Below, piece after piece: positions 4,062 to 58,217 of a stretch of DNA of 64,000 bases. Position numbers and translations under genes: made by a program. The notes beneath the pieces are model-generated. The model was not told where the DNA came from, made no database searches, and worked only from the letters and a program-made list of their open reading frames with translations. Origin of the DNA: a virus. Positions within the stretch are counted from its first letter, which is position 1; every line of letters begins with the position of its first letter. The stretch is taken from positions 1-64,000 of IMG/VR virus record IMGVR_UViG_3300013113_000816; one strand, written 5' to 3'.

Positions 4062-4289
4062 ATGAAAAAATCAGAACTAAGGAAAATTATCAAAGAGGAA
4101 ATTTTGAAAGAATCACTTCAATTTACCCCGGAGGAGAAAAAAGAAGGCCAACAAATGGAAATGAAAGTAAATGTTCTATCTACCATAGATGAATTAAACC
4201 AGTTTCTGAATGGTAATGTAACCGCTGAGGGATTGAAAGATGCTTTAGAAAGTATGATTTATAAACTAAATAGATTAAATTATAAATAA
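4062..4289 (+). CDS. Putative capsid-targeted internal protein 1
   Basis: 75 aa. Leader MKKSELRKIIKEEILKE is followed by S, giving L-K-E|S at residue 17. The body (EEKKEGQQMEMKVNVLSTIDELNQFLNG...) is helical and small. It is the first of six head-to-tail genes with the same leader, spaced by -4 to +9 nt. Leader plus ΦxE site is how T4 internal proteins are sent into the prohead and trimmed by gp21. Cargo function unknown. Confidence 0.75.
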   Translation: MKKSELRKIIKEEILKESLQFTPEEKKEGQQMEMKVNVLSTIDELNQFLNGNVTAEGLKDALESMIYKLNRLNYK

Positions 4290-4534
4290 TGAAAAAATCA
4301 GAATTAAGAAAATTAATTAAAGAGGAATTAAAATCTGTAAATGAAGGAATTGAAAATAAAATTCCCGGAATGAGAGATTTCTTATTATTTAAATCCATTA
4401 TGGATACTCGAACTATAAAACGTGCTGATGATGAAGATCAACGTAGATGGGCTGAGGTTACTGAGGAATTAGATGATACCTTAACGCGTTGGATGGATTT
4501 GTTGTTAGAATTAGATAAAATATACCCATCATGA
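4289..4534 (+). CDS. Putative capsid-targeted internal protein 2
   Basis: 81 aa. Leader MKKSELRKLIKEELKSVNE then G (V-N-E|G). The mature part would begin GIENKIPGMRDF and is helical with many charges (RADDEDQRRWAEVTEELDDTLTRWMDLLLELD). Shares one base with the previous stop (TAATG). Unrelated to its neighbours after the leader, which supports a modular leader plus cargo design. Confidence 0.75.
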   Translation: MKKSELRKLIKEELKSVNEGIENKIPGMRDFLLFKSIMDTRTIKRADDEDQRRWAEVTEELDDTLTRWMDLLLELDKIYPS

Positions 4535-4752
4535 AAAGATCACAACTAAGACAAATAATCAAAGAAGAAATCTCAAAAGAATTAAAGGAAGGCGCTTTAA
4601 TGGACCAGGGTGGTTGGGATTATAACTTAATGGACCAGATAGAGGATAAAGTTGAGGAATTAAACTCAATAATTGGGAAATATGATAATGAGGAGATTAT
4701 TAATTTAATAAATGAAATTATTAGAGATCTTGAACAGCTGAAAAATAAATAA
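4531..4752 (+). CDS. Putative capsid-targeted internal protein 3
   Basis: 73 aa. Leader MKRSQLRQIIKEEISKELKE then G (L-K-E|G). The cargo is short, acidic and helical (MDQIEDKVEELNSIIGKYDNEEIINLINEI). Overlaps the preceding gene by 4 nt (ATGA). Confidence 0.75.
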   Translation: MKRSQLRQIIKEEISKELKEGALMDQGGWDYNLMDQIEDKVEELNSIIGKYDNEEIINLINEIIRDLEQLKNK

Positions 4753-5027
4753 TGAAAAAATCTGAATTAAAACGTATTATCAAAGAAGAAATTTCCAAGG
4801 TATTAAAAGAAAATACTATGGAAATAAAACCCGGAATTAACCTAAAAGGGAATGATGGTAACTTATATACAGTCCTAAAAGCGGGTAATCCTCAAACCCC
4901 ACACCTCATTAACAATGTAGTTGCATTAATGAGATTTAATGATGATGAAATTGTTTATTTCCCTCAAGATTTCGGTAGATATTTAGAAATAGACCAATTT
5001 TGGGATCATTTTGAACAAACTAGATAA
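4752..5027 (+). CDS. Putative capsid-targeted internal protein 4
   Basis: 91 aa. Leader MKKSELKRIIKEEISKVLKE then N (L-K-E|N). The cargo looks beta-rich, like a small SH3 or PUA-type barrel (GINLKGNDGNLYTVLKAG ... VALMRFNDDEIVYFPQDFGR), and so differs in fold from its neighbours. No catalytic motif seen. Confidence 0.75.
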   Translation: MKKSELKRIIKEEISKVLKENTMEIKPGINLKGNDGNLYTVLKAGNPQTPHLINNVVALMRFNDDEIVYFPQDFGRYLEIDQFWDHFEQTR

Positions 5028-5029
5028 TT

Positions 5030-5350
5030 ATGAAAAAATCACAACTAAGAAAAATCATTAGAGAAGAACTTAAAGGAGCACTAAATGAAGGTATTAACCC
5101 TTTAAAACATCATTTCTTAAATTTACAATTAGATCTTAGACAAGAACTTATTAATAAATTAAAGGGTATGGATACCCAAGCATATATTGCAACTATTGAA
5201 AAATTGATTAATGAAGAGGGTTGGAATATTGGAAATCCTGAGGATGGTAGAGAGGTGTATTTATATATCCAAGGGATGGATGATCAAAAAGTTGAGGCTG
5301 CATTAGAAAGTGAAGCCCTTATAAGAGGATACGGTACACATATTAGATAA
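5030..5350 (+). CDS. Putative capsid-targeted internal protein 5
   Basis: 106 aa. Leader MKKSQLRKIIREELKGALNE then G (L-N-E|G). Helical cargo (LQLDLRQELINKLKGMDTQAYIATIEKLINEEGW). Unknown function; starts 3 nt after the previous stop. Confidence 0.75.
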   Translation: MKKSQLRKIIREELKGALNEGINPLKHHFLNLQLDLRQELINKLKGMDTQAYIATIEKLINEEGWNIGNPEDGREVYLYIQGMDDQKVEAALESEALIRGYGTHIR

Positions 5351-5358
5351 AATAAATT

Positions 5359-5670
5359 ATGAAAAGATCACAACTAAGGAAAATCATCAAAGAAGAACTT
5401 AGTAAATCTATTGTTGAAAATGAACAGTGGAGTGCAGGTGATGTAAGTGAAATTATGAGGCAATTATTGTTAACTCAAAAAACATTGAGAAATGGTGCTT
5501 CTCATATGGAGAGATTAATTGAAGTATTAGGTAAGTATGTTAATAAACCCCAAGGAGATAAATTAGCAGGTATGGTTCCTGATAACTACCAGGTAATTGA
5601 TATTCTTAATAAAATGGAGAATTTAAATAAAGGTCTTCATGCTATGTTCCCACATTTAAATAAAAAATGA
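5359..5670 (+). CDS. Putative capsid-targeted internal protein 6
   Basis: 103 aa. Leader MKRSQLRKIIKEELSKSIVE then N (I-V-E|N). Helical cargo (VSEIMRQLLLTQKTLRNGASHMERLIEVLGKYV) with a lysine-ending tail. Last of the tandem series; its stop overlaps the start of the next small gene. Confidence 0.75.
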   Translation: MKRSQLRKIIKEELSKSIVENEQWSAGDVSEIMRQLLLTQKTLRNGASHMERLIEVLGKYVNKPQGDKLAGMVPDNYQVIDILNKMENLNKGLHAMFPHLNKK

Positions 5671-31643: not shown

Positions 31644-32438
31644 ATGATAAAATTAAGAGATTTGCTTTTAGAAGTACAAGGTAAACCCAAAGCCCTTATC
31701 TTAGCTGGAGCTCCTGGAGCGGGTAAAGGGTATATTTTAAGGGGTTTAGATTTAGGAGGATTAAAAACCTTTAATATAGATGATACCTTCATAGATTTAT
31801 TAAGACAATCAAATGTATCATTAGATTTAAAATCCCATGGACCTGAAGAAAGAAGTGCTGCTGCTAAAGCAATGGCTGTTGCTTCTCGAAAACATAAAAA
31901 AGAATTAATCCCAAATGCAATAGCAAATCAAGAACCATTTATTTTAGATGGAACAGCAGCTTCACAAAAAAACACTTTAAAATTAAAGGGCGAATTAGAA
32001 GCAGCAGGTTATGATGTTTTTATGTTGTATGTTTATACTGATTTAGAAAGATCTTTAAAACAAAATCAGAATAGATTTGAAAAATCAGGTGGTAAAGATA
32101 GGAGTTTACAACCCGCAATTGTAATGTCTACATGGAATTCAGTTACTAAAAATTTCGAACCTTATCAACAAGCATTTGGTAAAAATTTCGTCTCAGTAGC
32201 CAATACAGGAGAGGCAATGACTGACTTAGAACAAATAATAACAAAGTATTTAGACCCATTTAAACCACAAAATACTAAACCTAAAACAGAAAAAGAAAAA
32301 ATACGTTCAAGAGCTAAAAAAGAAGAAACAAACAAACAAATACAAGATTTATTAAATTCAAACCACTTACAGAATATAATCAAGTCATCAGTATCAAAAG
32401 ACGAAGCTCAAACACAAATATCTAACTTTTTAAAATGA
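31644..32438 (+). CDS. Zeta-toxin-like P-loop kinase with capsid-targeting-like leader
   Basis: 264 aa. Residues 1-11 MIKLRDLLLEV give L-L-E|V, a short leader in the style of the other putative internal proteins. Walker A AGAPGAGKGY (about 20-29), a later FNIDDTF, a helix-rich insert (ERSAAAKAMAVASRKHKKELIP) and FILDGTAASQ (Walker B-like) suit zeta-toxin or polynucleotide-kinase-type enzymes. YTDLERSLKQNQNRFEKSGGKDR contains the arginine lid. It would phosphorylate a small molecule or nucleic-acid end; substrate unknown. ATG is preceded by a late motif and the gene overlaps the multi-enzyme gene behind it by 4 nt. Confidence 0.75.
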   Translation: MIKLRDLLLEVQGKPKALILAGAPGAGKGYILRGLDLGGLKTFNIDDTFIDLLRQSNVSLDLKSHGPEERSAAAKAMAVASRKHKKELIPNAIANQEPFILDGTAASQKNTLKLKGELEAAGYDVFMLYVYTDLERSLKQNQNRFEKSGGKDRSLQPAIVMSTWNSVTKNFEPYQQAFGKNFVSVANTGEAMTDLEQIITKYLDPFKPQNTKPKTEKEKIRSRAKKEETNKQIQDLLNSNHLQNIIKSSVSKDEAQTQISNFLK

Positions 32439-35422
32439 ACGGACTAAGTGAATTTTTAATAGACAGTATGGTTAAAGAACAAACCACTGCTTTATTTGGT
32501 GGGGGTTTTAAACCACCTACTAAGGGGCATTTAGAAGTTGTCTTACAAGGTTTAAGTGAAAATCCTAAAGTAAATAAGCTTATTATAGCTGTAGGTAAAA
32601 AAAATAGAGGGGGAGTAACCCAAGACCAATCAGTTCAAATATGGGAAGTTTATAAAAGACTTATACCTGTTGAAACTGAAATCATTCCTGTAATATCACC
32701 ATTTAATTTTTATAAAAAATTCCTAAAAGAAAATAAAGAAGATAATGTTTATGTTTTTATAGGTGCAAGAAAAAATAATAAAAAAGATATTATTGATATA
32801 AAGGAAAGATCCAAATTTGTAAAAAGATATAGTGATAATGTAATCCCAAAAGGAGTATTAACTGAAAACATTGATAGTGGTACTAATTCAAGAAAACTAT
32901 TTAAAGAAAATTTAGAAAAATTTTATGATACTTTACCAATAGATTTAACTGAAGATGAAAAATTCCAAGTCCATCTTATTTTAGAAGGTGAGAAATTACA
33001 AAAGTATGTAGATAAAGTTAAAGGGGGTTTTAAAAAATTTATCCAATCTTTAAAACAAGAAAAACAAGAAACTAAAGATGCCTTTAAATTATTAGTCCAA
33101 TCTGTAAAAGGTAAAAAACAATTATCTAAAGAAGAAAAAAAAGAAATAGGTAATCAAATGAAAGATGTTCTTAAAGTAGCAGGGTTTACAGCTGCTTCTG
33201 TATTACCTGGAGGGGTTATATACTTAATGTTATCAAGAATACCTGCCTTAAAAAAATCATTAACACCTTCTGCTTTTATAAATGAAGCTTCTGAAGATAA
33301 AATTTTATATGCTTTTGATTTAGATGACACTTTAATCACTTCAAAATCAAATGTTATAGTTACTAACCCTGAACAAGGAACATTTAAATTAACACCTGCT
33401 GAATATGCCTTATATGAACCAGGACCAAATGATGAATTAGATTTTTCAGAATTTAAATATTTAAAAAGTCCAAAAGTAATTAAAGACAATTTTGAATTAT
33501 TTTCCAAAATATTAGAAAAATCATCCCAATTATCAGGTGCCAAAACAATTATATTAACCGCTAGACAACCTGAAGTAGCTACTGATGTAGAGGCATTTCT
33601 AGAAAAAAAGAATTTACCTCAAATAACTTTACATGCTGTAGGTAGTTCTGACCCAAATGAAAAATTAGAAGTAATAAAAGATTACATTAATCAAGGATTT
33701 AATAAAATTAGATTTTATGATGATTCTCCTAAAAATGTAGAATCTATAAGATCTATAGATATACCTGGAGTGGATGTTATTTCTAAATTAGTTAAACATG
33801 GTCCATTAGGTGAAGTTTTATTAAGAGAAGCAATGGTAAATGAAGAAAAATTAGATCTTAATTTACCTGAAGATATTCTTCATCTTTATAGAGCATTTAT
33901 AAAAAATGGGAAAAAATTATATGTTGTTGGAGGTGCAGTAAGAGATGCTCTTTTAGGTAAGGACCCTAAAGATTATGACTTAGCTACAGATGCAACTCCA
34001 GATGAAGTACTAGCAATAGCTGAAAAAGAAGGATTAAAAACTTTAGAAATAGGAAAACAATTTGGTGTTGTAATGGTAAATGGTCATGAAATAGCTACTT
34101 TTAGAAAAGATATAGGCAAAGGTAGAAGACCAGATTCAGTAGAATACACTGATATTGAAGGTGATGTTAATAGAAGAGATTTAACTATTAATGCCTTATT
34201 TTATGATATAGATAAGGGTGAAGTAGTTGATTTAGTAGGTGGGGTTCAAGATTTAAAAGATAGAAAAATTAGAACTGTAGGTAAAGCTTCTGAGCGATTT
34301 GAAGAAGATGCCTTACGTAAATTAAGAGCATTAAGATTTCATGGTCAAACAGGAGGAGAATTAGGTAAAGAAACATTACAAGCTTTAAAAGATAACCCAT
34401 CACTTGAAGGTGTAAGTGGAGAAAGAATTAGAGATGAATTCCTTAAAGGACTCAAAAAAGCTATATCAACTAAAAAATATTTAGAAACAGCAGATGGATT
34501 GGGTTATTTAAATCAAATCCTTCCTAATTTAACAATTACAACACCTTACATAGATGAGGAAGATTATATTGTTTTACTTGCTTACCTTTTAAAACAAAAT
34601 TCACCATCTCAAATTGTTAAACAATTAAATCAATTAAAATACTCTGGGGAAGAAGCTAAACAAATCAGTTTCTTAGCTTCATTAGCTAATTTTACCCCAA
34701 ATCAAATACAATCATATAAAAAATTCCAAAAAATATCAGGTGTAACTGATGAACAAATAAATAAAATAGGAAATTTAGTAGGTAAAGATTTTACTAAATT
34801 TTTAAATTTTGAATTAAGTGTAAGGGGCAATGAGGCACCCTCAGGTTTAAAAGGACCAGAAATAGGAGATTGGGTAAATAAACAAGAAATTTCAAATTAT
34901 CAATCATTAAATGAGGATAATGACCCATTCGGTTTGGTGCGATTAGTAAATGAAGTAATAGGAGAGGATGAGTTTGATTATACCCCACATATAGATTCTT
35001 TAAATGGTTATATGGAAGATAAGGGAATGAATGTAACTCCTCTACCTAGTTTAGTATTTATACATGACGATGTAGATAACGCGCAAGATGTTATGGGCAA
35101 AACAGCGTTTTACAACCCAAATAAACGCGAAATAGTTTTATACACGTTATACCGCCACCCCAAAGATGTTCTGCGTTCATATGCGCATGAGATGATTCAC
35201 CATATCCAAAACTTAGAAGATAGATTAGGTAACATAACTACAACAGATACAAGAGAAGATGACCATTTAACAGATATAGAAAGGGAAGCCTATACAGATG
35301 GAAATCTTGCATTTAGAAAATGGACAGAAACATTAACTGAGAGTCAAAAGTCTACTCTATCTCTTAAAGATAGTTTTGAACCACAAAAAGAAAATTATAA
35401 ATTTGATTGCAACTGTGGTTGA
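32435..35422 (+). CDS. Four-enzyme fusion, candidate prohead-protease-processed polyprotein
   Basis: 995 aa with four recognisable modules. (1) About 12-180: nucleotidyltransferase (ALFGGGFKPPTKGHLEVV, the T/HxGH family), followed to about 280 by a helical stretch with KEIGNQMKDVLKVAGF and LPGGVIYL, LETM1-like. (2) About 287-460: HAD phosphatase (YAFDLDDTLI, TIILTARQPE, FYDDSPKN). (3) About 475-780: CCA-adding/poly(A)-polymerase-type head (LYVVGGAVRDALLGKDPKDYDLATDATPDE, RRDLTINALFYD). (4) About 845-995: metallopeptidase (YAHEMIHHIQN, HExxH-type, with a later ERE). Linkers hold FINE|A, LLRE|A, MVNE|E, SLNE|D and LVNE|V, matching a T4-like cleavage rule. The N-terminus (GLSEFLIDSMVKE) looks leader-like. 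Packaging and processing are inferred. Confidence 0.75.
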   Translation: MNGLSEFLIDSMVKEQTTALFGGGFKPPTKGHLEVVLQGLSENPKVNKLIIAVGKKNRGGVTQDQSVQIWEVYKRLIPVETEIIPVISPFNFYKKFLKENKEDNVYVFIGARKNNKKDIIDIKERSKFVKRYSDNVIPKGVLTENIDSGTNSRKLFKENLEKFYDTLPIDLTEDEKFQVHLILEGEKLQKYVDKVKGGFKKFIQSLKQEKQETKDAFKLLVQSVKGKKQLSKEEKKEIGNQMKDVLKVAGFTAASVLPGGVIYLMLSRIPALKKSLTPSAFINEASEDKILYAFDLDDTLITSKSNVIVTNPEQGTFKLTPAEYALYEPGPNDELDFSEFKYLKSPKVIKDNFELFSKILEKSSQLSGAKTIILTARQPEVATDVEAFLEKKNLPQITLHAVGSSDPNEKLEVIKDYINQGFNKIRFYDDSPKNVESIRSIDIPGVDVISKLVKHGPLGEVLLREAMVNEEKLDLNLPEDILHLYRAFIKNGKKLYVVGGAVRDALLGKDPKDYDLATDATPDEVLAIAEKEGLKTLEIGKQFGVVMVNGHEIATFRKDIGKGRRPDSVEYTDIEGDVNRRDLTINALFYDIDKGEVVDLVGGVQDLKDRKIRTVGKASERFEEDALRKLRALRFHGQTGGELGKETLQALKDNPSLEGVSGERIRDEFLKGLKKAISTKKYLETADGLGYLNQILPNLTITTPYIDEEDYIVLLAYLLKQNSPSQIVKQLNQLKYSGEEAKQISFLASLANFTPNQIQSYKKFQKISGVTDEQINKIGNLVGKDFTKFLNFELSVRGNEAPSGLKGPEIGDWVNKQEISNYQSLNEDNDPFGLVRLVNEVIGEDEFDYTPHIDSLNGYMEDKGMNVTPLPSLVFIHDDVDNAQDVMGKTAFYNPNKREIVLYTLYRHPKDVLRSYAHEMIHHIQNLEDRLGNITTTDTREDDHLTDIEREAYTDGNLAFRKWTETLTESQKSTLSLKDSFEPQKENYKFDCNCG

Positions 35423-35939
35423 TTTAACAGAGATATATCAAGAAATTTTAGAAGAAGTTCCAACCCAATATAAGTTATATTGTGACATGGATGGTGTGTT
35501 GTGTGATTTTGATGAAAGATTTAAAAAATATTCTAATGGAATGCCACCTAGAGAATATGAACGAAAATATGGAAAAGAAAAATTTTGGGACTTAATAGAT
35601 GTCCAAACAGGTTTAAAATTTTGGGTTGGTATGCCTTGGATGCCTGATGGAAAAGAGTTATGGGATTATATTAAACCTTATAATCCTACTTTACTTTCAG
35701 CTCCATCATATAATAACAACTCTCGTTTAGGAAAACGACTATGGGTTAGAAATAACATACCAGGAACAAAGTTGATTTTGGCTAGTAGAGCTAATAAAGT
35801 AAACTATTCAAATGAAAACTCAATACTTATTGATGATATGCCCCGAACCATTGAAGAATGGGAGAGTGGGGGAGGTATAGGAATCCTGCATACCTCGGCT
35901 GCTTCTACTATAGAGCAACTAAAACAGCTGGGATTATAA
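35376..35939 (+). CDS. HAD-type 5' nucleotidase-like protein
   Basis: 187 aa if started at TTG 35376. HAD motif I is YCDMDGVLCDFDERF. Motif III/IV lies in SILIDDMPRTIEEWESGGGIGILH. The cap with GKEKFWDLIDVQTGLKFWVGMPWMPDGKELWDYIKPY resembles 5'(3')-deoxyribonucleotidases. There is no ATG before motif I. Candidate starts are TTG 35376, TTG 35403 or GTG, overlapping the polyprotein by 47 nt in the +1 frame. The segment before the domain reads EIYQEILEE|V, again cleavage-like. Either non-ATG initiation, a +1 frameshift fusing it to the polyprotein, or a sequence error explains this. Confidence 0.75.
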   Translation: MNHKKKIINLIATVVDLTEIYQEILEEVPTQYKLYCDMDGVLCDFDERFKKYSNGMPPREYERKYGKEKFWDLIDVQTGLKFWVGMPWMPDGKELWDYIKPYNPTLLSAPSYNNNSRLGKRLWVRNNIPGTKLILASRANKVNYSNENSILIDDMPRTIEEWESGGGIGILHTSAASTIEQLKQLGL

Positions 35940-38710: not shown

Positions 38711-41200
38711 ATGGGTAAATCTCTTCTTAAAAATCGCATTAAGAAAATCTTAAATGAAGCTCTTACCCCCGACCAAGTATCCCAAGTAGAAGACAAATAC
38801 AACTCAATTTATTCAGGCATGTTGAAGGGCAATAAAAAAAAGCTTATGAAATATGTCGATCCAAAATTTAAAAGGCCAAACCCTGATGCAATGGCTATGG
38901 GTAGGGCTATTAATTTAGTTAAAAAGGATAGTGATAAAGAAGAAGTTAATGAAGCTAAGTATCCTGAATACACAGTAACAAAAGATGATTGGAAAAAATC
39001 AAAATATCCATTTGAAAAACTAAAAAATAGTGAATTCAAAATTAAAATAGCAGGAGAAGGTGATGATAGAAAATATTTGTTTTTTTGGAAGGAAGATGGT
39101 GAAGGTGATTGGGAAGCAGGAAACATGAAAAGACAATTAAGAAGTGCTTTAACTGCCATAGCTAAAAGAAAACTACCTATTAAAGAAGATGAAATGATAA
39201 ATGAATATTCCTTTGAATGGAACAAAGCTAGAGCGGGTAGAATTATGAAGGATTTATTTGGACCTGATTTTGAATTTGATTACACATATAAACTTGAAGG
39301 TGATAGGATTATAATTCATCCTGAAGGATATAATGATGATGGTACTTTATTTGATATGAAAGATGTTCATAAAGAAAAAATTATAAGAACATTTCGAGAT
39401 AAAATGCCAAGTGCTAATGCAAAACCTAACATGGGTGGAGGGATAACAGTACATTTAAAAGAATCAGTAAATGAAAATGAAATGAGTACAAAAATACCTT
39501 TTGTAATAGACCTGGGAGAGGATATATCTAGAGCTAATTATAAAAAAGTAATGTTGAAATTAGATTCAATGGGTTACAAAGGATGGTATCAATTAGCTAT
39601 GAATGTGAGAGATAAATTATTAGTTAATAGGCTTGGTAGAAAACCAATAATACACTTTTACCCTGGATTTAGATATCTAATATTAGGCCCAATAGGAGAA
39701 ATCCCAGAAAAAGAGATAAATCATAACAATGAACTTATAGAAAAATATTCATCATTAGAAGTAGTTCCTTTTGAAGATTTTCTTAATGAATCAGTTAATG
39801 AAAATGAAGCTCCTGTAAAAGTAGGAGATAAATTAAAAATGGCTTACCAAGGAAGTACTGTACGTGATAAAACAGGTGTAGTAACCTCAGTATCAGATGA
39901 TATGGCTCAAGTTGATTTTGGTGGGGGAGATGTTTATGGTATTTTATTTAGTAGAATTAAAGGAAATGAAATTATGAAAGAAGATTTAATTAAAGAAGCA
40001 TCATGGGATGAAATAGCAATGGAGAAATATGGTGTAAAATATGATAAATTAAATCATCTAGAACAGGAATGGGTTCGTGATAAAATGGATAAGGATAGAG
40101 GAGTAATGGAAGAAGTCACTTCAGTTAATGAACGACTTTCCTCAATGGTAAGAGAAGTTTATTCTGAAAAGCAAAGAAAATGGGCATGTGCTCAAGACGA
40201 TCCCAAATTTGATGAAATGTGTAAAGACACAGCAATATCAAAAAAGAAATTAGAAGAATACTTTATGTTAATGAACCCCTCTAAGAAAAGAGGAGGAGGA
40301 AAAAATTACCCATCAGAATATTTAGGTGTACTTGCTCATTATCAACATAGTGTATTAAAAATTCCAAGACATAAAAGAGCAAAAGCTACAGTAGGAGCAG
40401 ATATGCATGATCGTTATGGTCAAGAAGTTTGGGATATTATAAGTAATAATTATCCTACATTAGGTTTAGACCCAACCCCACCTTCTAATTGGAAAGATAC
40501 AGCTAGATTATTAGCTGGTAAATTTAAAGAAGCAGATTTAAGTTATTATAGAGATCTTAAAAAACCTTTTTTAAATGAAGGAAAAACATCAACTGTTAGC
40601 AAATCGAGAGCCAAATCATCACTTAAACAAATGTTAAAAGGTAAACGTGATGATGGAATGGGTAAACCTACATTAAAAGCTGTACTGGCAATTGATAAGG
40701 ATGGTAAAGAAACTGAAGTAAAAAAATTAGAAGACTTTGATAAGTTTGAAAAAGGAACTAAATTCGCATTAAAAGAAACAACTATGAATAACGATAGACT
40801 AACTGAATTAATAAAAGCAGCCTTAAAAGGACCAGTTAAAGAAGATAAATCCAAATTAGAAGAGATAGGTAAAGTGAAATGGCAAGGTGAATTATTAGAT
40901 AAACTTAAAATTTATTTTAAAATAGCTTATGAAACAGGGTTAGAATCATTAGGGTCATATGATGATTTTGAGGAAGAATTTTGGAATAGAAATAAGGATG
41001 ACATGCTTTATAAATTACACAATTTAAATGAATCCTACATGATGGATACTGATAGTAATGCAAACACTGCAGTATTACAAGTTTTAAGTATTTTAAAACA
41101 TGCAGATATAGATGGTGAAACTATGCAATATATTTTAGAAGAATTAGGGATGGATGAACAAATGTGGAAACAATTAAATGTTAAATACGGAACACCGTGA
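38711..41200 (+). CDS. Modular head-core/internal protein with many cleavage-like sites
   Basis: 829 aa, no known enzyme motif. Leader MGKSLLKNRIKKILNE then A. Modules of roughly 50-150 residues are separated by similar sites: EVNE|A (~80), MINE|Y (~164), SVNE|N (~255), FLNE|S and SVNE|N (~358-362), LIKE|A (~430), SVNE|R (~472), FLNE|G (~622) and LNE|S (~775). One module (PVKVGDKLKMAYQGSTVRDKTGVV) is an SH3/KOW-like barrel; others are helical. Region 480-610 (RKWACAQDDPKFDEMCKDTAISKKKLEEYF) is more globular. Interpreted as a set of internal peptides in one chain for the prohead protease. Confidence 0.7.
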   Translation: MGKSLLKNRIKKILNEALTPDQVSQVEDKYNSIYSGMLKGNKKKLMKYVDPKFKRPNPDAMAMGRAINLVKKDSDKEEVNEAKYPEYTVTKDDWKKSKYPFEKLKNSEFKIKIAGEGDDRKYLFFWKEDGEGDWEAGNMKRQLRSALTAIAKRKLPIKEDEMINEYSFEWNKARAGRIMKDLFGPDFEFDYTYKLEGDRIIIHPEGYNDDGTLFDMKDVHKEKIIRTFRDKMPSANAKPNMGGGITVHLKESVNENEMSTKIPFVIDLGEDISRANYKKVMLKLDSMGYKGWYQLAMNVRDKLLVNRLGRKPIIHFYPGFRYLILGPIGEIPEKEINHNNELIEKYSSLEVVPFEDFLNESVNENEAPVKVGDKLKMAYQGSTVRDKTGVVTSVSDDMAQVDFGGGDVYGILFSRIKGNEIMKEDLIKEASWDEIAMEKYGVKYDKLNHLEQEWVRDKMDKDRGVMEEVTSVNERLSSMVREVYSEKQRKWACAQDDPKFDEMCKDTAISKKKLEEYFMLMNPSKKRGGGKNYPSEYLGVLAHYQHSVLKIPRHKRAKATVGADMHDRYGQEVWDIISNNYPTLGLDPTPPSNWKDTARLLAGKFKEADLSYYRDLKKPFLNEGKTSTVSKSRAKSSLKQMLKGKRDDGMGKPTLKAVLAIDKDGKETEVKKLEDFDKFEKGTKFALKETTMNNDRLTELIKAALKGPVKEDKSKLEEIGKVKWQGELLDKLKIYFKIAYETGLESLGSYDDFEEEFWNRNKDDMLYKLHNLNESYMMDTDSNANTAVLQVLSILKHADIDGETMQYILEELGMDEQMWKQLNVKYGTP

Positions 41201-43568: not shown

Positions 43569-44198
43569 ATGAAAAGATCAGAATTTAGAAATCTCATTAA
43601 AAGAGAGCTTATTAAAGAAGCTAAAGGAACTTCATATGAGTCAAAATTAGCTGAAATTGAAAAACAAGGACAAATTACTACCTTAGAAGCTAAAATCGAT
43701 GCTTTAGCAGAAATGATTGAAGCCAAAAACAGTAGATTAAGTTTAGTTAGTGAAGATGAAAATCTTTCTGAACTCATTGATAAGAAAAAAATCAAAGAGA
43801 TGCAAAAAGAAATCAAGCTTTTAGAAAAAACTAAATTGAAACTTGAAAAACTCTATGAAAAAAAGAGTGGTGGTAAGAAAAAAGATGTAGTAACAGATGA
43901 TCCATCAGATGAAGATATGGATCACCAAGATGCACTTGATAAAGCCTCAGAAGAAGGATCTACAGAATTTATAGACGAAGGTACTGATTCAACTTATGAA
44001 GAAGATGGTAATGACTCCGTAAATGAAGATTTTGATGATGTTGTTGATGATATCATGGATCAAGGAAAATCAAGAGAAGATGCTGAAAACATAGCAGGAG
44101 CAATAAATCGTGATCATGTAGGTAATTACAGACAAGAAGAATCAATATCAGAATTTAATTTAAGAGAATATTTAGCAGATAATAATCTAACAAAATAA
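43569..44198 (+). CDS. Coiled-coil internal protein with leaders at both ends
   Basis: 209 aa. N-terminus MKRSEFRNLIKRELIKE then A (I-K-E|A). Long coiled coil (LAEIEKQGQITTLEAKIDALAEMIEAKNSRLS ... KIKEMQKEIKLLEKTKLKLEKLYEKK), then an acidic linker (DDPSDEDMDHQDALDK). The C-terminus SISEFNLREYLADNNLTK is a copy of the other leader class (DFNLRKYL). Bearing both tags, it could bridge cargo and scaffold. Last gene before the terminator at 44250. Confidence 0.7.
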   Translation: MKRSEFRNLIKRELIKEAKGTSYESKLAEIEKQGQITTLEAKIDALAEMIEAKNSRLSLVSEDENLSELIDKKKIKEMQKEIKLLEKTKLKLEKLYEKKSGGKKKDVVTDDPSDEDMDHQDALDKASEEGSTEFIDEGTDSTYEEDGNDSVNEDFDDVVDDIMDQGKSREDAENIAGAINRDHVGNYRQEESISEFNLREYLADNNLTK

Positions 44199-54719: not shown

Positions 54720-55322
54720 ATGAAACAAGTACTTATAGAAACCCAATTATTCAAACCAACCCCAATTAGTTTAACTGAGGGTAAAGTATCTGAAAGAGGT
54801 AACCCTATAGTTGAAGGTATTTTAGCTACAGCTGAAGTAAAAAATGGTAATGGTAGATATTATTCAAAAGATCTTTGGGAGCGAGAAATTGATAAGTACA
54901 AAGAAATAGTTGAAGACAACAGAGCAGTAGGTGAATTAGACCACCCTGAATCATCTGTTGTTAATTTAAAAAATGTATCACATAACATAAAAGATATGTG
55001 GTGGGATGGAGATAATGTAATGGGTAAAATTGAAATATTACCTACCCCATCTGGAAATATATTAAAAGCATTAATCGAAAATGGAATTACTTGTGGTGTA
55101 TCTTCTCGTGGAATGGGTTCTTTAGAACAAAATGGTGAACTAATGGAAGTTCAAGATGATTTTGAATTATTATGTTGGGATTTTGTTTCAACCCCCTCCA
55201 ATCCAGGCTCATACATGAAAACACTTAAAGAAGGAAAAGAAAATATTATTAACCCGTACAATAAAATTAACACAATAGTAACAGAAATATTATGTGCTAA
55301 TGGTAATTGCCCATTATTTTAA
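54720..55322 (+). CDS. gp21: Prohead core protease (gp21)
   Basis: 200 aa. Serine protease of the prohead family: catalytic histidine in VGELDHPESSVVN (about residue 74), serine in ITCGVSSRGMGSLEQ (about 126-128), with FELLCWDFVSTPSNPGSYM as the usual third block. The N-terminal segment KPTPISLTE|GKVSERG may be self-processed. Known role: cleaves scaffold, capsid and internal proteins at ΦxE sites during maturation, which makes it the candidate processor of the leader proteins described here. Confidence 0.92.
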   Translation: MKQVLIETQLFKPTPISLTEGKVSERGNPIVEGILATAEVKNGNGRYYSKDLWEREIDKYKEIVEDNRAVGELDHPESSVVNLKNVSHNIKDMWWDGDNVMGKIEILPTPSGNILKALIENGITCGVSSRGMGSLEQNGELMEVQDDFELLCWDFVSTPSNPGSYMKTLKEGKENIINPYNKINTIVTEILCANGNCPLF

Positions 55323-56546: not shown

Positions 56547-58217
56547 ATGAGTCAATTAAATTCACTTTTAGAAAGCTCTGCAAAAGGTTGGAAAAACCTT
56601 CAGAGTGATGCCGCTAGATTAGCTGGCAAATGGGAGAGAACAGGACTATTAGAAGGTTTAGGTAGCGAAGTTCACAAGAACAATATGTCAATGATTCTTG
56701 AAAACCAAGCTAAGCAACTTGTAGTTGAAGCAAATGCCACTAATCAAGGTGGTGCTACGTTTACAGCAGGACAAGGTGCTCAGTGGGCTGGTGTAGCCCT
56801 TCCATTGGTAAGAAAAGTATTTGGACAAATTGCTTCTAAAGAATTTGTTTCAGTTCAACCAATGAACTTACCTTCTGGTCTAGTATTCTTCCTCGATTTC
56901 CAATATGGTTCGGATAAGGAACTTAACCAAGGACCTGCTGGAGATGTTTATTCAAGCCCTGCTTCTATGTATGGTAATACTGATCCAGGTGCAGGAGTTG
57001 ATCCTTCAGATGGTTTATATGGTGCTGGAAGATTTGCTTACTCAGTAAATCAATTCTCAGCTTCTGCTACTACTACTGTAGCTACTGCTTCTTGGCAACA
57101 ATTAGATTATAAAGCTGAATTATCAGCTTCTGTTGCTGCCGGAGATTATACATCTGTATCTATTCCTGCTTCTAGTTTAACTAGACCTGATACAAAAGGT
57201 GTTAGAGCATTTACTCTATCTTCAGGTTCAGCTACTAATCCAAATGCTGCTTCATTAGCAAACTTACTTCCTGAATACACTGAATATGATGGAACTGACA
57301 TATATTTTATATTTTCAGGTTCAGTAGGTGGTGCTAATATACCAACAGCTGCTGGAGATGGTATTGTATTATACAACCAACAACCAACTGATAATCACAG
57401 AGGTGATTTTGAAGATGCTTCAGGTGCGGGTTACCCAAACAATGCAAGCAATACAACACTATCAATTCCACAAATTGATGTGAAAATGAAATCAGAAGCA
57501 ATTGTTGCTAAAACTAGAAAGTTAAAAGCACAATGGACTCCTGAATTTGCTCAAGATTTGAATGCTTACCAAAGCTTAGATGCTGAGGCAGAGTTAACTT
57601 CAATCATGAGTGAATACATTTCATTAGAGATTGATCTTGAAATTATAGATATGCTTATTGCAGATGCATCAGCTGCTGATGAATACTGGAATGCGCAAAA
57701 TAACCAATCATTAAATTCTGGTAAAACTGGATATGATGACTTGGCTTTCTTCAACACTCAAGGTCAGTGGTTCCAAACTTTAGGAACTAAAATGCAAAAG
57801 GTATCTAACAAAATTCACCAAAAGACCCTTAGAGGTGGTGCTAATTTTGCTATGATTTCTCCTTCAGTTGCTACTATCATAGAATCAATCCCAGGATTTG
57901 CTTCTAATGCTGATGGTGATGCATCTAAGAATAAATTTGCATTTGGTATCCAGAAAATGGGACAAATGAATAGTAGATATGATGTATATAAAAACCCTTA
58001 TATGACTGAAAACGTTATATTAATGGGTTACAGAGGAAACCAGTTCCTAGAAACAGGTGCTGTATTTGCTCCATACATTCCACTTATAATGACTCCTCTA
58101 GTATACGATCCAGACACTTTCACACCAAGAAAAGGTCTATTAACTCGTTATGCTAAGAAGATGATCAGACCTGAATTCTACGGAAGAGTATTTGTTAGCA
58201 ACTTAGCTACAGTATAA
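56547..58217 (+). CDS. gp23: Major capsid protein (gp23)
   Basis: 556 aa. Opening LNSLLESSAKGWKNLQSDAARLAGKWERTGLLEGL. The probable maturation site lies around MILE|N or LVVE|A (about residues 50-62), where T4 gp23 has IAE|A near 65. HK97-type body with QWAGVALPLVRKVFGQIASKEFVSVQPMNLPSGLVFFLDFQYGS and a C-terminal YGRVFVSNLAT. A serine/threonine-rich insert (about 155-270) is longer than in typical cores and may be surface exposed. Followed by a terminator. Confidence 0.95.
   Translation: MSQLNSLLESSAKGWKNLQSDAARLAGKWERTGLLEGLGSEVHKNNMSMILENQAKQLVVEANATNQGGATFTAGQGAQWAGVALPLVRKVFGQIASKEFVSVQPMNLPSGLVFFLDFQYGSDKELNQGPAGDVYSSPASMYGNTDPGAGVDPSDGLYGAGRFAYSVNQFSASATTTVATASWQQLDYKAELSASVAAGDYTSVSIPASSLTRPDTKGVRAFTLSSGSATNPNAASLANLLPEYTEYDGTDIYFIFSGSVGGANIPTAAGDGIVLYNQQPTDNHRGDFEDASGAGYPNNASNTTLSIPQIDVKMKSEAIVAKTRKLKAQWTPEFAQDLNAYQSLDAEAELTSIMSEYISLEIDLEIIDMLIADASAADEYWNAQNNQSLNSGKTGYDDLAFFNTQGQWFQTLGTKMQKVSNKIHQKTLRGGANFAMISPSVATIIESIPGFASNADGDASKNKFAFGIQKMGQMNSRYDVYKNPYMTENVILMGYRGNQFLETGAVFAPYIPLIMTPLVYDPDTFTPRKGLLTRYAKKMIRPEFYGRVFVSNLATV

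Follow-up and report, generated by a model that had tools for sequence, protein, structure and literature searches.

A candidate prohead-protease-processed polyprotein of putative RNA and NAD repair enzymes in a T4-like phage

Background

Polyvalent proteins, which combine 2-15 unlike domains in one polypeptide, have been described from phages and conjugative elements by Iyer et al. in 2017; a zincin-like metallopeptidase is their commonest domain, their architectures are shuffled and their delivery together with the DNA has been predicted (PMC5512222). Here we analyze a comparable chain of a marine T4-like phage, P0001, an open reading frame (ORF) of 995 aa at 32435..35422 of the first 64,000 nt of IMG/VR virus record IMGVR_UViG_3300013113_000816 (this whole stretch is called the window; all features given below lie on its plus strand). 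An earlier note on this DNA had pictured P0001 as four enzymes set free in the capsid by the prohead protease and injected for early host takeover, and had regarded such delivery as new, which it is not, since injected phage proteins of several domains have been described before under the name 'polyvalent proteins' (PMC5512222). P0001 resembles them in joining several disparate activities in one phage chain and in the shuffling of architectures. The P0001 family differs in its set of modules (HIGH nucleotidyltransferase, HAD, CCA, LETM-like, 2H and ligase-like) and in bearing a prohead-protease motif and targeting-like peptides at the junctions, even in proteins without a recognised metallopeptidase; hubs of the ArdC-N/ParB/MuF type were not found in the Pfam scans.

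Processing of injected proteins during head maturation has been described for T4 and the giant phages, whose prohead proteases cleave after Glu (PMC5694885). T4 gp21 cleaves itself near its own N-terminus (PMC9958956), and the T4 internal proteins IPI-III and Alt share with P0001 a short N-terminal peptide ending in hydrophobic-x-Glu (PMC9958956, PMC5694885). The T4 internal proteins are single cargoes with trimmed ends (Alt at ITE-6 and LTE-619), whereas in P0001 the sites lie between several enzymes. The giant phages SPN3US and phiKZ, which cut C-terminal to Glu in a short motif with a fixed P3 residue and have many injected head proteins (PMC5694885, PMC10052503), would be similar to the P0001 phage as interpreted here; the SPN3US motif is AxE and that of the P0001 clade [LIVMF]xE, and the giant-phage cuts remove propeptides and release no set of enzymes. 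The enzymes themselves recur in jumbo phage inventories, which list CCA, HAD, 2H, Pol-beta nucleotidyltransferase, ligase and a HIGH nucleotidyltransferase linked to a P-loop kinase, mostly as separate genes, unlike the cassettes within one polyprotein of the P0001 family (PMC7824862).

In this work we have compared P0001 with its relatives in viral contigs. The modules, their shuffling, the junction motif and the N-terminal peptide family can be seen directly in the sequences, and P0001 is probably a polyprotein of enzyme cassettes that is processed by the prohead protease, packaged in the head and delivered with the DNA for repair of RNA and nicotinamide adenine dinucleotide (NAD).

Results

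The reading frame of P0001 is uninterrupted, and its start codon shares bases with the stop of the preceding gene (ATGA). Because an independent IMG/VR contig (L001; relatives are cited by such numbers) carries a full-length copy with 99% identity, P0001 is not an assembly joint. The four enzyme domains noted earlier were confirmed in the sequence, and the catalytic motifs are intact. Residues 17-172 (32483..32950) contain the motifs FKPPTKGH, of the (H/T)xGH type, and SGT..R, with which aligned relatives agree; the module scores E 0.003 against PF01467, under the cut-off of that family (relative L019 reaches 1.4e-6), and finds weak matches in PDB to NMNAT/PPAT chains (best E 0.0013). By these features it is a nucleotidyltransferase of the NMNAT/PPAT (HIGH) type, for which specificity towards nicotinamide mononucleotide is predicted at most. 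Residues 286-452 (33290..33790) correspond to a HAD phosphatase, recognised by a module hidden Markov model (HMM) and by a match to a PHROG annotated as 'polynucleotide kinase' (2.6e-9); the motifs FDxDDT, LTAR, K and DDS, corresponding to the DxDxT, T/S, K and DD of HAD enzymes, are invariant across six relatives, and a PDB search gave no meaningful match. The third module, residues 472-812 (33848..34870), is by sequence a class II CCA/poly(A)-type nucleotidyltransferase with the PolyA_pol head GG..DxD (PF01743, 1.6e-32) and the RNA-binding/neck region (PF12627, 3e-5), matching also phrog_2244 (3.6e-58) and CCA enzymes in PDB (5e-33); the choice between CCA and poly(A) activity is a prediction. 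The fourth, residues 847-961 (34973..35317), is a putative zincin-like metallopeptidase, MPT1, with the sequence HEMIHH. Its HExxH and a downstream Glu are invariant in aligned relatives; three residues beyond HExxH stands Gln, where a widespread phage zincin clade has Asp (PMC5512222). Pfam gave no match to MPT1 above cut-off; its AlphaFold2 (AF2) model has a mean predicted local distance difference test (pLDDT) of 83.9 and weak Foldseek matches to IrrE/selecase (E 0.06-0.5).

The five motifs pointed out previously, ending in E284, E465, E470, E827 and E840, are all present between these modules. The site FINE284/A (the slash marks the presumed cut) lies at 33278..33289, and INE/ASEDK or LNE/ASEDK is retained in L005, L111, L116 and L129 despite a differing upstream segment. 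LLRE465/A and MVNE470/E (33818..33847) form the left edge of the CCA cassette, and SLNE827/DNDPFGLVRLVNE840/VIGE844 (34907..34969) precedes the peptidase; a cassette of the DPFGLNxYAREL type recurs at junctions across the relatives. Two further junction sites had been missed: VKE15, ending the N-terminal capsid-targeting-like peptide MNGLSEFLIDSMVKE/QTT (32435..32479), whose counterparts in relatives are MNELTKFLVDSVLNE and MNKLSKFLLMGLLEQ, and TLTE969/S after the peptidase (35333..35344), replaced by TLTE/A in L019 and ILNE/A in L020. Also missed had been a hydrophobic, 'LETM-like' segment (residues 197-280, 33023..33274), conserved in relatives with the pattern KKEIGNQMKDVLK..VLPGGxI..PSAF, found in many of them between the first and second modules, with a diverged version in its place in L005 and L116. 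Its identity as LETM1 was rejected, Pfam and PDB searches with the segment giving no match to back the resemblance; it may be a membrane-interacting part. The C-terminal end of P0001, KENYKFDCNCG (35387-35419), has a counterpart in VIFNKNCGCDKT, in which L137 and L181 end, as a conserved cysteine tail.

To avoid circular reasoning the junction motif was drawn from other proteins of the clade, namely the N- and C-terminal sites of gp21 and the border of the gp23 pro-region (68-82 sequences each). The P1 Glu is invariant at the two gp21 sites (82/82 and 82/82) and at the gp23 site (68/68), which we take to be the maturation site from its alignment with T4; P3 is one of L, I, V, M and F in every case and P1' is mostly small, which gives [LIVMF]xE/small. 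Relatives were collected from viral contigs in four scans, whose queries were the complete chain and alignments of modules, and by module HMMs. Among 71 non-redundant polyproteins the motif was found in 159 of 204 module-start windows (78%), compared with 61.4 (31%; standard deviation 6.0, maximum 77) after shuffling, and in 11-14% of 31-aa windows inside modules. Glu at P1 was enriched 2.55-fold over shuffled sequences and other P1 residues 0.69-1.53-fold. A generic linker effect was thereby ruled out, as Asp, Lys, Asn, Gln, Ser, Thr, Ala, Gly and Arg at P1 gave no comparable excess and a polar P3 was not enriched. The second metallopeptidase module of the family, MPT2, is preceded by xE at position -1 in 34/34 deduplicated cases, in five kinds of upstream context (MPT1, Zn-ribbon, LETM-like, nucleotidyltransferase and an N-terminal stretch), and in proteins without a recognised metallopeptidase the motif stands at 15/15 module starts.

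The scans revealed 34 distinct complete architectures of at least two modules each, in differing orders, such as Pol-beta-like/HIGH-nucleotidyltransferase/MPT1/MPT2, HIGH-nucleotidyltransferase/LETM-like/HAD/MPT1 and HIGH-nucleotidyltransferase/MPT2/MPT1, and, in a relative of 1496 aa, Pol-beta-like/HIGH-nucleotidyltransferase/HAD/MPT1/Zn-ribbon/MPT2. In pairwise homology 49% of breakpoints fall within 12 aa of a site, compared with 19.7% of random positions (2.5-fold). The CCA module is an insertion: in L111, which is without it, the HAD module ends in ..LGEILKEE and is directly followed by SDPFDLIQLVNEV (SDPFDL), and at the counterpart of this joint P0001 has, between ..LGEVLLRE465 and DNDPFGLVRLVNEV, 362 residues that end in SLNE827. 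In L005 and L007 a different module is placed between NILEE and NLKEQ. A ligase-like module of L147 has a weak match to an RNA-ligase PHROG (E 0.003) and none in a PDB search. In four large-phage contigs (L008, L013, L015 and L024) a CCA enzyme and a 2H (tRNA-ligase CPD-like) phosphoesterase are joined in one protein, which has a targeting-like N-terminal peptide and xE junctions but no recognised metallopeptidase. On two further large-phage contigs (L018:8001-10224 and L021:8001-9459) the CCA-type gene is in two reading frames with extra sequence between them, which might be an insertion of homing-endonuclease type.

Both genes flanking P0001 belong to the same set of modules. Upstream, overlapping P0001, lies a Zeta-toxin-type P-loop kinase (31644..32438; PF06414, 3.1e-14) with the N-terminus MIKLRDLLLE/V, and in L181 the kinase module is joined to the N-terminus of the polyprotein (31% identity, 1e-18). 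Downstream lies a 5'-deoxyribonucleotidase (35415..35939; phrog_2643, 8.8e-25) beginning with MVDLTEIYQEILEE/V; its start is most likely the GTG at 35415, within the last codons of P0001, and the 5'-nucleotidase is fused to the C-terminus of the polyprotein in L119 (70% identity), L169, L184 and others. Among the free genes, 75/75 kinases and 60/61 5'-nucleotidases begin with an N-terminal peptide that ends in [LIVMF]xE, both above every shuffle, and the kinase of L140 has its own peptide exchanged for one of the NFDLRKYL class. Fused 5'-nucleotidases have the motif in 20/21 cases, and in nine of them a DPFG cassette stands in place of the free N-terminal peptide. In the simplest reading, the junction cassette would serve a fused module in the way that the N-terminal peptide serves a free gene and the capsid-targeting sequence serves the internal proteins and Alt of T4 (PMC9958956, PMC5694885).

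Such peptides extend beyond the P0001 neighbourhood. The N-termini of 17 of the 68 ORFs in the window fall into similarity families, where 1.3 were expected (maximum 6 in 100 shuffles), and two classes are prominent, MKKSELRKIIKEE.. and M.NFDLRKYLxEN... A cleavage motif within residues 9-34 is found in 13/14 members of these classes and in 9/53 other ORFs of the window, the consensus of the MKKSELRKIIKEE.. class itself already holding one match. Six consecutive small ORFs of 73-106 aa (4062..5670) begin with the capsid-targeting-like MKKSELRKIIKEE..; their starts are near-identical and their bodies dissimilar, and their products may form a group of small internal proteins that are packaged. 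An ORF of 829 aa (38711..41200), with the N-terminal peptide MGKSLLKNRIKKILNE/A, contains 15 junction-type motifs compared with 7.1 expected by shuffling (maximum 15 in 1000) and may be a second processed head-internal chain; gp079 of Flavobacterium phage immuto resembles it. The ORF at 43569-44198 starts with the peptide MKRSEFRNLIKRELIKE/A and ends, shortly before its stop, in the second-class peptide EFNLREYLADNNLTK, as if the following module had been lost.

The window encodes the terminase, portal, gp21-type protease, gp23-type capsid and baseplate proteins of a T4-like phage, and the P0001 phage is like T4 in having protease, scaffold and capsid genes of the T4 type. The prohead protease (54720..55322; phrog_207, 3.8e-60) has its own sites SLTE20/G and TLKE171/G, and the major capsid protein (56547..58217; phrog_138, 9e-67) has the presumed maturation site LVVE61/A. 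The only cultured relatives found are isolates of immuto, whose gp088 (YP_010114595.1, annotated as NMN adenylyltransferase NadR) is syntenic with P0001, with primase/exonuclease genes on one side and a 5'-nucleotidase on the other. It shares the HIGH nucleotidyltransferase, MPT1 and xE junctions, adds a Pol-beta-like N-terminal module and MPT2, and is without the LETM-like, HAD and CCA modules. Stretches syntenic with this phage group also occur in L347-L351, from bins named Flavobacteriales, Woesearchaeota or unclassified bacteria, which are probably phage contigs binned with cells.

Discussion

From the conserved junctions we infer a pathway in which the amphipathic N-terminal peptide would act as a capsid-targeting sequence and bring P0001 into the core of the prohead. 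While the head matures, the gp21-type protease would cut after the Glu of [LIVMF]xE at about residues 15, 284, 465/470, 827/840/844 and 969 and free the nucleotidyltransferase (with the hydrophobic segment), the HAD phosphatase, the CCA-type enzyme and the metallopeptidase, which would remain in the head and enter the cell alongside the DNA. The neighbouring kinase and 5'-nucleotidase would represent the same kind of cassette as separate genes and be delivered together with them. The likely purpose is to repair or restore tRNA ends, NAD and nucleotides without delay against host defence. Judged from the protein families, this role appears more likely than the host takeover suggested before, since the modules of the family match phage inventories of RNA-repair and NAD enzymes (PMC7824862): CCA, HAD, 2H phosphoesterase, ligase-like, Pol-beta-like and HIGH nucleotidyltransferase, with the adjoining kinase.

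The claim that the sites in P0001 lie at domain borders and are not evenly spread held in part. Outside the modules, in 14.6% of the length, lie 9 of the 19 matches to the T4-type [LI]xE (binomial P 7e-4) and 6 of the 11 matches to the clade motif (P 0.002), the P1' residues of SLNE/D and LVNE/V falling outside the motif used in these tests. As this border excess is moderate, the statistics across the family were used as the decisive evidence. The linker position of the sites, which was to be checked in a predicted structure, was upheld for most of them. In the full-chain AF2 model residues 1-14, 252-287, 454-478 and 838-845, at or next to VKE15, E284, E465/E470 and E840/E844, have pLDDT <50 and the nucleotidyltransferase has a confident fold; E827 was assessed from the peptidase model alone, since the full-chain model omits the CCA part, and there residues 827-846 are of low confidence and the domain itself is good.

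Several observations weigh against processing by the prohead protease and delivery. Five matches to the clade motif lie within modules of P0001, four in the nucleotidyltransferase and one in the CCA module, and therefore the motif by itself is not decisive; across the family it marks 68% of MPT1 and 52% of ZNR junctions, so some borders are unmarked. The motif excess of the fused 5'-nucleotidases taken alone is not significant (20 versus a shuffled mean of 13.8, maximum 20). The motif itself was derived from gp21 and gp23 sites whose placement comes from conservation and presumed homology with T4, not from mass spectrometry. The full-chain AF2 model is weak (pLDDT 57.9) and covers no CCA region, because stand-alone CCA relatives were misaligned and had been left out of the alignment; it was used solely for the confidence of the junctions and the nucleotidyltransferase. 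A literature search yielded no proteomics or biochemistry on the P0001 phage or immuto, and immuto goes unmentioned in a paper on Baltic Flavobacterium phages.

With the zincin-like domain intact in P0001 and present in most relatives, one might suppose a polyvalent protein that is cut by its own metallopeptidase (MPT1, or MPT2 in relatives), either ahead of packaging or once it has been injected, with no part played by the prohead protease; this role has been proposed for such domains by Iyer et al., e.g. in DdrB of phage P1 (PMC5512222). It fits less well, because the junction motif matches the sites in gp21 and gp23 at which the prohead protease presumably cuts and because proteins lacking a recognised metallopeptidase share the junctions, with all 15 of their module starts marked; single genes free of any peptidase also begin with the same kind of N-terminal peptide. 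We consider self-cleavage unlikely. Slightly less likely still is that P0001 acts uncut at full length, as a multifunctional fusion enzyme either packaged or made late, with the xE motifs as relics or structural linkers. N4 virion RNA polymerase and TraC1 are indeed transferred uncut (PMC5512222), and motif matches occur within folded domains too. Structural linkers would hardly account for the Glu-specific conservation, with hydrophobic P3 and variable P2, at joints of unrelated modules, nor for modules that occur now as free genes and now in fusions, where nothing but the type of peptide preceding the site is retained.

Very improbable, in our estimate, is a role of the chain as a scaffold-like core protein with many gp21 cuts, some of them within domains, which would leave the head as T4 gp22 does, its enzymes never being delivered. 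T4 gp22, gp67 and gp68 are degraded by gp21 to small peptides (PMC9958956), and in-domain matches exist in P0001; however, the domains keep their catalytic residues throughout the family, and the motif density within modules (0.11-0.14 per 31 aa) is far under that at junctions, as expected where folds must survive. Release of the enzymes by the prohead protease remains our preferred explanation.

Conclusions

Multidomain injected proteins are already known, as is the trimming of single injected proteins by a prohead protease; the possible novelty of P0001 lies in junction sites that match the prohead protease instead of a metallopeptidase within the chain. A polyprotein with prohead-protease sites in interchangeable border cassettes was not found in a literature search, outside of which most subscription journals lay. 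If the proposed processing is right, the head maturation protease of T4-like phages would, beyond trimming propeptides, separate several cargo enzymes made as a single chain, and phage enzymes of RNA repair and NAD metabolism would be tied to delivery at infection, ahead of phage gene expression. The junction cassette would then predict virion-borne proteins of uncultured phages by sequence alone and could be used for loading several foreign enzymes into T4-type heads. More tentatively, and with somewhat less confidence than we place in P0001 itself, the T4-like phages of Bacteroidota may possess a plug-in cargo system, in which any enzyme behind an interchangeable targeting-and-cleavage cassette, whether encoded on its own or within a polyprotein, would be loaded into the prohead, freed by the protease and delivered at time zero as part of a pre-made RNA/NAD repair kit. 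Such a system would be the counterpart, in viruses of prokaryotes, of polyprotein processing in eukaryotic viruses, carried out by the capsid maturation protease.

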